A stretch of 47,206 nucleotides of DNA from Candidatus Berkelbacteria bacterium (lineage in GTDB: Bacteria > Patescibacteriota > UBA1384 > DTJR01). The notes beneath the pieces were generated by a model that had not been told where the DNA came from, did not search any database, and saw only the letters and a list, made by a program, of their open reading frames with translations. Made by a program: the position numbers and the translations under genes. Positions within the stretch are counted from its first letter, which is position 1. The number at the start of each line of letters is the position of its first letter. Below are positions 9,397 to 47,206 of this stretch, piece after piece. Location: positions 1-47,206 of the forward strand of contig JAPLVK010000011.1 of the NCBI GenBank assembly GCA_026397175.1, given 5' to 3'.

Positions 9397-9448
9397 TTAA
9401 TTTGAAAATTTTGTTCAATAAGATAAGATGGGGGTAGTTTATTCCAGT

Positions 9449-9525
9449 GTCGGAGCATAGCACAGTTGGTAGTGCGCCGGGCTGGGGGTCCGGAGGTCGG
9501 CAGTTCAAGTCTGCCTGCTCCGACA
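9449..9525 (+). tRNA. tRNA-Pro (anticodon GGG), CCA not encoded
   Basis: GTCGGAG/CTCCGAC acceptor, CCGGG-CTGGGGG-TCCGG anticodon arm, GGCAGTTCAAGTCTGCC T arm. Confidence 0.85.
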
Positions 9526-9639
9526 CTGGAATAAATAGTTAACGCCGGGCTGACACTCGTACCCCTATTGTTTTATACTTAGGATAAAAATAAATCATCC
9601 CCAAATACACATTTAAACTAATTTTAGAAAACGATACTT

Positions 9640-9675
9640 GCCCCACTTCTCTGCTTCGAAGTATAATAGTGGTAA
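9640..9675. promoter_or_regulatory. Degenerate palindrome P1 upstream of TrpR-like gene 1
   Basis: CCACTTCTCTGCTTC|GAAGTATAATAGTGG; 12 of 18 arm positions symmetric. Confidence 0.65.
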
Positions 9676-9689
9676 AATGAATATATAAT

Positions 9690-9971
9690 ATGGTAAAAAG
9701 AGGAATTGATTTTGAATCGAAAAAGTTACTGATCGAGTCACTAGAGAAATTAGAAAGTGATGAGTTTGTTGATTTTCTTGAGTCACTTTTATCATCAACG
9801 GAAATAAAAAATATCTCTCGCCGCACTATGGCAGCAAAAGTATTGTTTGAAAAACATACCTACGAAGATGTTGAGGAACTCATGGGAATGTCGCCTGGAA
9901 CTATCAACAAAATTCATTTCAAAACCAAAGGCAGTCCAGCTTTCCGTAAACTATTCGACACAAAACGCTAA
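9690..9971 (+). CDS. TrpR-like (YerC/YecD-type) HTH DNA-binding protein, copy 1
   Basis: 93 aa; SRRTMAAKVLFEKHTYEDVEELMGMSPGTINKIHFKTKG Trp-repressor-family fold. Confidence 0.88.
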   Translation: MVKRGIDFESKKLLIESLEKLESDEFVDFLESLLSSTEIKNISRRTMAAKVLFEKHTYEDVEELMGMSPGTINKIHFKTKGSPAFRKLFDTKR

Positions 9972-9972
9972 T

Positions 9973-10008
9973 TTTCCACTTCCATACTTCGAAGTATAGA
10001 AGTGGCAA
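9973..10008. promoter_or_regulatory. Palindrome P2 just downstream of TrpR-like gene 1
   Basis: CCACTTCCATACTTC|GAAGTATAGAAGTGG; starts 2 nt after the stop codon; no T-tract follows. Confidence 0.8.
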
Positions 10009-10150
10009 GTTAAGTGGTGTAGGTAGGGTGTGCAGACAAAAGCCAAATAGTATGATACAATGAAGTTACATTTTAGTATAAAACAAGTAGCGTAGTCGAA
10101 CTATTTTTTTATACAATCTAAATGTAAACATATTAAATAAGGTATATATT

Positions 10151-15164: not shown

Positions 15165-15200
15165 ATTCTACTTCCATACTCTAGAGTATGGAAGTAGAAT
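15165..15200. promoter_or_regulatory. Perfect 36-bp palindrome P3 upstream of TrpR-like gene 2
   Basis: ATTCTACTTCCATACTCT|AGAGTATGGAAGTAGAAT; all 18 arm positions symmetric. Confidence 0.9.
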
Positions 15201-15202
15201 AA

Positions 15203-15493
15203 ATGATAATGCCAGAGAGAAATATTGATAGAAAAGCCAAGGAATTATTTATTAAAACTCTTGCAGAGCTTAAAAAAGAAGATGATATTTTGATGTTTCT
15301 TGAAAACCTGTATTCCTCTTCGGAAGTTAAGGATCATTCACGACGACTGCTGGCTGCAAAAATGTTGATCGAAGGAAGTACTTACGAAGATATCGCTTTG
15401 GTTATGGGCATGGGGACAGGAACCATTAATAAAATACACTTTAAGACCAAGGGTAGTCCTCTTTTAAACAAATTATTTAAAGAAAGGCAATAA
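15203..15493 (+). CDS. TrpR-like (YerC/YecD-type) HTH DNA-binding protein, copy 2
   Basis: 96 aa; SRRLLAAKMLIEGSTYEDIALVMGMGTGTINKIHFKTKGSPLLNKLF, clearly paralogous to 9690-9971. Start may be 15209. Confidence 0.88.
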   Translation: MIMPERNIDRKAKELFIKTLAELKKEDDILMFLENLYSSSEVKDHSRRLLAAKMLIEGSTYEDIALVMGMGTGTINKIHFKTKGSPLLNKLFKERQ

Positions 15494-15528
15494 TTCTGCT
15501 TCTATACTCTAGAGTATAGAAGCAGAAT
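15493..15528. promoter_or_regulatory. Perfect 36-bp palindrome P4, starting on the last base of the TrpR-like gene 2 stop codon
   Basis: ATTCTGCTTCTATACTCT|AGAGTATAGAAGCAGAAT; no T-tract follows. Confidence 0.9.
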
Positions 15529-46656: not shown

Positions 46657-46866
46657 ATGAGAGTAGTAATCACCGGCCACAACCCAGAGAAGCCCGAAGA
46701 ACAGGTTGAGTTGACAGAGACCAAACTCGCCCCCTTGTACGAGCTCAAACCTCGCACATGGCGTAAATTGCTCAAAGGATCTAGGTTCGCGCAAGCTGTC
46801 CACAAGGTACTTGCATGTAGTACTTTGTCAAGTACCCATTTTTTAGACAAGTTGTCTGCACATTAG
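46657..46866 (+). CDS. Small hypothetical protein, 3' end probably altered by an IS insertion
   Basis: SD-like AGAGGAG before ATG; MRVVITGHNPEKPEEQVELTETKLAPLYELKPRTWRKLLKGSRFAQAVHKV...; tail overlaps the putative IS end. Confidence 0.5.
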   Translation: MRVVITGHNPEKPEEQVELTETKLAPLYELKPRTWRKLLKGSRFAQAVHKVLACSTLSSTHFLDKLSAH

Positions 46867-47206
46867 TTTGTTTTTCAAATTGTATTGCTCTAGGAAGTTT
46901 TGAGGCGACATTTTTAGTTTAGTATGGATTCTTTTATTGTTATAATAATAAATAGTTTGATAAATAGCATTGATTAGTTCTCCCAGAGTTTCAAACTGGT
47001 CTGTATGCCCAAGGTCCAGTTTGAAGTTGGAATAATATGATTCCTTATGCGGATTTTCCCATGGGGAGGCCTTTTTACTCATTGAGATTTGGATGTTTTC
47101 TCTTTTGAGTAGACCAAGGTATTTGTTCGAATCATATTCGCTGCCTTGATCGTCATGGTGATACAAAGGCGCCTTACCGACATTCACCAAAGCGTTTCTG
47201 AAAGCG
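46826..47206 (-). mobile_element. IS3-family (IS150-like) insertion sequence end, truncated by window edge
   Basis: rve integrase-core ORF open to the window end plus IS150-like terminal sequence TGTCAAGTACCCATTTTTTAGAC. Confidence 0.7.
46843..47206 (-). CDS. IS3-family transposase (integrase catalytic core), 5' truncated by window
   Basis: HHDDQGSEYDSNKYLGLLKRENIQISMSKKASPWENPHKESYYSNFKLDLGH...YYYNNKRIHTKLKMSPQNFLEQY. Confidence 0.9.
   Translation of the reverse strand, partial: AFRNALVNVGKAPLYHHDDQGSEYDSNKYLGLLKRENIQISMSKKASPWENPHKESYYSNFKLDLGHTDQFETLGELINAIYQTIYYYNNKRIHTKLKMSPQNFLEQYNLKNKLMCRQLV

Follow-up and report, generated by a model that had tools for sequence, protein, structure and literature searches.

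A TrpR/HisR-Fold Gene Between Two Palindromes of Its Own in Candidatus Berkelbacteria: A Candidate REPtron-Like Unit

1. Introduction

TrpR dimers can be arranged in tandem, shifted by 8 bp relative to one another, and tandem TrpR binding is the subject named in the title of PDB entry 1trr. It has been reported that the consensus site of HisR, cacTTTAnnnnnnTAAAgtg, has an ACT-n12-AGT spacing and that hisR is frequently autoregulated (PMC9413887). A second kind of association between a gene and palindromes is the REPtron, in which a Y1 transposase gene is flanked by paired palindromes (PMC3733652, PMC6006769), and a third point of reference is the Rickettsia palindromic element (RPE), with a length of 105–146 bp (PMC2229807). 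In the open-access literature on TrpR-like genes with palindromes in candidate-phyla (CPR) bacteria, no earlier description was found. Here, two such genes (units A and B) are described from the window, that is, the whole stretch of 47,206 nucleotides of contig JAPLVK010000011.1 (Candidatus Berkelbacteria bacterium) that was analyzed.

2. Architecture of the Two Units

The features of the two units are as follows (palindromes are given without strand):

9638–9667, plus strand: promoter-like TTGCCC-18-TATAAT, matching the consensus at 10/12 positions; its -10 lies within the upstream palindrome of unit A
9643–9672: upstream palindrome of unit A, a putative tandem operator overlapping the promoter; 11/15 pairs
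9690–9971, plus strand: gene of unit A for a TrpR/HisR-fold protein; 93 aa; PF01371 30.2 bits, cut-off 27
9976–10005: downstream palindrome of unit A; 14/15 pairs; half-sites ACT at 9978 and 9986, AGT at 9993 and 10001
15165–15200: upstream palindrome of unit B; perfect over 36 nt; centre TCTAGA
15203–15493, plus strand: paralog gene of unit B; 96 aa; 56% identical to the protein of unit A
15493–15528: downstream palindrome of unit B; perfect over 36 nt; its first base is the final base of the stop codon

The palindromes of unit A read CCACTTCTCTGCTTC|GAAGTATAATAGTGG upstream and CCACTTCCATACTTC|GAAGTATAGAAGTGG downstream, the latter starting 4 nt past the stop codon and not 2 nt, as a preliminary description of this DNA had it. 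The palindrome–TrpR–palindrome layout proposed there for unit A proved to be real: the 24-nt palindrome core is confined to these loci in the window, and a flank repeat of score at least 15 is shared by 0 of ~29 other window ORFs. A chance origin of the local layout is ruled out by shuffles, which expect 0 such cores, and by these ~29 control ORFs without paired flanks. Similarly, units A and B are two members of one family, as had been proposed, with a common layout and 56% protein identity, and their palindromes have the centres TTC|GAA and TCT|AGA that were claimed for them.

The upstream copy of unit A had been described as degraded, with 12 of 18 positions symmetric. It is indeed asymmetric, but a direct count gives 11/15 pairs, and simple decay is a doubtful account of it, since the copy may be adapted: the TATAAT -10 is created at its asymmetric bases. 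Judged from this overlap, the palindrome is probably an operator across the unit's own promoter that doubles as promoter. Unit B has only a weaker promoter match, located farther upstream.

Two further features of the window were noted. A tRNA-Pro at 9451–9524 lies within perfect 20-nt inverted arms (9438–9457 and 9516–9535), so that its acceptor stem is extended by ~12–13 pairs, and a window-edge ORF on the minus strand (46843–47190) resembles an IS3-type integrase fragment, the family being judged by eye.

3. Protein Fold and Half-Site Geometry

The two window proteins score 30.2 and 33.4 bits against PF01371, exceeding its curated cut-off of 27, and 34.0 and 37.2 bits against TIGR02531 (YerC/YecD), below its cut-off of 42.2; on these profile scores they are related to, but outside, the curated YerC/YecD subfamily. 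The AlphaFold model (pLDDT 91.8) has six helices in a TrpR fold. Its best PDB match is the HisR-like structure 3g1c, with a TM of 0.83, and E. coli TrpR was also matched; against 1trr, a tandem complex of TrpR with operator half-sites, the TM is 0.82. By fold and profile together, the unit proteins belong to the TrpR/HisR superfamily. The TrpR domain is the only one in their 93–96 aa, with no Y1 profile match in the window proteins, and no defence-family match was found either.

The centre-aligned consensus of 50 units, a set also used for the Mantel tests below and in which one copy may count twice in some units, is YACTWCMATACTNY.RNAGTATKGWAGTR. Its information peaks at two half-sites 8 bases apart, and the self-identity of the arm is 0.52 at offset 8 against 0.18–0.38 at other offsets, a result that is unchanged once the double counting is corrected. 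Across units, symmetry is maximal at the half-sites and minimal at the centre. The spacing from the left ACT to the inner AGT is ACT-n12-AGT, so that the consensus contains, near the units' own genes, two overlapping palindromic operator-like sites of this form, and the fit is better to HisR (n12) than to E. coli TrpR (n8). Because the spacing matches HisR and the half-sites repeat at 8, the palindrome can be read as a pair of HisR-type sites that overlap with an 8-bp shift. Such a geometry is what the binding of HisR/TrpR dimers in a tandem pair would call for.

4. Recurrence of the Units and Divergence of Their Palindromes

Among the 55 genomes of the window's class, 26 TrpR-like genes were found (a 27th match, below the cut-off and not TrpR-like, was left out); 17 have flanks sharing a repeat of score at least 15, and 2 have weak ones, while paired palindromic flanks occur in none of the class's seven canonical ~100-aa YerC-like genes. 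Phylum-wide, related genes occur in 112 of 379 genomes. In related genomes, 90 TrpR-like genes were inspected and 53 of them have paired flanking palindromes; the sample is weighted to top matches and multi-copy genomes and gives no estimate of frequency. Among control ORFs in other, partly repeat-rich loci, ~7 of 100 have such flanks. The two palindromes within a unit have a mean identity of 0.83 (median 0.89), compared with 0.50 between units, and the divergence between units holds even within a single genome, for example among the five paralogs of G216. Each unit has its own gene-specific palindrome, cognate to the gene by sequence pairing. Some orthologous units of one genus keep syntenic flanks, which argues that much of the inheritance is vertical. 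Carriage as phage or plasmid cargo was rejected: scans of IMG/VR and of plasmids returned no relative of the units, and phage records gave only three distant matches at ~32%.

Several other palindrome-bearing loci were recorded in these surveys. Two canonical-length YerC-like genes (L006, G045:C29; L007, G044:C24) have a different palindrome on both sides, centred on GTGTTAACAC, and a TTGACA promoter-like site overlaps the upstream copy. At L197, L198, L193, L189, L190 and L192, CPR Y1 (RAYT/TnpA_REP) genes lie between long paired palindromes that are specific to each gene and form their own REPtron set, and a further Y1 gene (L191, G045:C62:2041-2250) has on its flanks more than 130 nt of a near-identical repeat composed of CAAGCTGAAGCTTG-like short palindromes.

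The preliminary description had proposed that the helix-turn-helix (HTH) and the palindrome co-evolve and that DNA specificity diverged at the dyad centre. Palindrome distance is correlated with protein distance over the 50 units (Mantel r = 0.33, p = 0.0002), and since the permutations ignore phylogeny, this means that palindromes follow protein clades and is no proof that particular residues read particular bases. The correlation comes mostly from positions -3 to -7 (r = 0.41); positions -1 to -3 contribute weakly (r = 0.07–0.12; HTH r = 0.12), and at the two central positions, -1/-2, it vanishes (r = 0.00, p = 0.48), which lends no support to the dyad centre as the place of divergence. In a naive mutual information analysis, residues 71 and 68, at the HTH turn, ranked top with positions -8 and -7, but this residue–base covariation found no firm confirmation in 25 independent pairs. 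The lack of correlation that would have spoken against co-evolution was not observed for the palindrome taken whole. In the closest clade, of seven units, CTAG centres accompany Gly at residue 71 and TCG or TAT centres accompany Ser, a suggestive pattern that fits the idea of centre specificity in a number of units too small to decide it.

5. Dispersed and Truncated Copies in Relatives

The core pattern, flanking copies included, was counted 18 times in G040, 7 in G041, 8 in G031 and 7 in G048, and the reversed control pattern had 0 matches in these four genomes. Dispersed palindromes are present in G040, G041 and G048; the genome of the window has only its two pairs and no solo palindromes outside them. 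In G048, five copies lie 3–13 nt past stop codons. The miaB gene of G048 and G050 contains a 24-nt in-frame palindrome insert, and the corresponding empty site is found in G049, a sister species within the genus of G048, and in G054 and G044; likewise, a solo palindrome after rnhA is present in G048 and missing from G049. Empty sites of this kind in relatives could also be deletions. For the unit of G048, the flanks map to different contigs in G049, so that no clean empty site is available. G050 has six pattern matches and no TrpR-like gene was found in it.

Truncated derivatives were also observed. In G030, one palindrome and the first ~20 codons of the gene are fused to another ORF; in G041, two palindrome copies accompany a gene fragment that has lost an internal part; and one TrpR-like gene of G031 has an internal stop. 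The solo copies of G040 and G041 are nested in longer intergenic repeats, which confound an empty-site survey between these two genomes and suggest that the moving entity may be larger than the palindrome.

Two related observations were made. The G040/G041 loci, for example L114 (2910–3323), show abundant intergenic repeats with ends of the TTGTTCGAGG...CTCGAACAGTAA type, and in G021:C16 an ORF for a putative UvrD-like helicase contains a palindrome of the family (L093, ~1465–1490).

6. Proposed Mode of Action and Alternative Explanations

The reading that we prefer, with a probability of roughly 0.55, is that a HisR/TrpR-type protein regulates its own gene through tandem-dimer operators and that gene and operators together make up a REPtron-like unit. 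The unit would consist of a small gene for a dimeric DNA-binding protein of this type between two operators of its own, each a palindrome of ~26–36 bp with room for a tandem pair of dimers at a distance of 8 bp. At the upstream copy, the bound protein would block the promoter and produce autorepression, as is suggested by a promoter overlap like that of HisR, and binding downstream may cap the opposite end. The gene–palindrome pair would travel and diverge jointly, and in relatives the palindromes, which may themselves be mobile, would also spread as solo, REP-like copies, possibly with a part played by the protein. Counted against this explanation are the lack of a catalytic domain to account for movement, the lack of solo copies in the genome of the window, the longer repeats around the solo copies of G040 and G041, the pattern matches of G050 in the absence of a TrpR-like gene, the syntenic flanks of some units and the possibility that the empty sites are deletions. 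A bolder version, which we hold to be speculative and rather unlikely, is that these units form a new class of selfish palindromic elements in candidate-phyla bacteria, whose REP-like spread and persistence would depend on non-catalytic TrpR-fold tandem dimers recruiting host replication or repair enzymes, the pairs co-diversifying into many orthogonal ones.

The strongest competitor, possible though unlikely, is an ordinary HisR-type repressor that controls its own gene and has operators on both sides, serving for looping or for shielding the next gene, in which case the solo copies would be an ordinary regulon and nothing would be mobile. The promoter overlap in unit A, the autoregulation of HisR and the syntenic inheritance in some species would all be expected of such a repressor, as would the absence from G049 of both the close TrpR gene and the sites of G048. 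Against it stand the position of solo copies within the coding part of miaB and directly past stop codons, not in promoters, and the truncated remnants of units.

We consider it improbable that the palindromes, instead of being bound as DNA, work as RNA hairpins that terminate transcription in both directions or protect transcripts. Three of the four window palindromes fold strongly, with z-scores of -6.2 to -7.4, and palindromes sit after stop codons in relatives, as hairpins might; however, folding is weak for the upstream palindrome of unit A (z -1.5), the primary sequence with its 8-bp half-site repeat is conserved in unrelated units, and symmetry at the centre is lost by non-wobble changes while that of the half-sites is kept. 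In addition, no T-run was found on the coding strand at the window palindromes and a terminator match occurs on the minus strand at one copy only; an intrinsic terminator as the main role was rejected for want of the coding-strand T-run.

That the palindromes belong as REPs to a Y1 transposase (RAYT), with the TrpR-like gene as a passenger, is very improbable and was rejected, because the Y1 genes of the same genomes, although they share the palindrome–gene–palindrome layout, have gene-specific paired palindromes that differ in sequence from those of the TrpR units, and no Y1 gene was detected in G040 (with its 18 copies), G041 or G031.

7. Significance and Comparison with Known Systems

The units offer dozens of natural, putative protein–operator pairs, each labelled by its own flanking palindrome and including paralogs from one genome, which can be used to learn how the TrpR-type helix-turn-helix shifts its specificity. 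The units also point to palindromic repeats that are linked to a DNA-binding protein and have no transposase, which bears on the question of how REP families spread where no dedicated transposase exists.

Among described systems, the HisR (YerC/YecD) and TrpR repressors of PF01371 resemble the units in fold, profile, ACT/AGT half-site, the n12 spacing of HisR and promoter overlap. Unlike these repressors, the units have palindromes on both sides and two tandem sites (26–36 bp versus 20), fall below the TIGR02531 cut-off, and have gene-specific sequences with solo copies dispersed in relatives. With REPtrons (RAYT/TnpA_REP plus REP), they share a single small gene and paired, gene-specific, dispersible palindromes that often follow stop codons, but they lack a Y1/HUH transposase and a conserved foot tag, and their solo copies are few; no tetranucleotide tag (GTAG/CGTC) was found at the palindrome foot, where positions -14 to -16 have 0.18–0.47 bits. 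The TrpR-like unit is thus REPtron-like in layout and not a member of the REPtrons, because the transposase is missing. With RPE and other bacterial MITEs, the resemblance lies in relatives and not in the window: an in-frame palindrome insert in a conserved protein gene with empty sites elsewhere, namely miaB of G048/G050 versus G049/G054/G044. The net insert is 24 nt here and thus far shorter than an RPE, and, in contrast to RPE and MITEs, the gene family flanked by the matching consensus is known.
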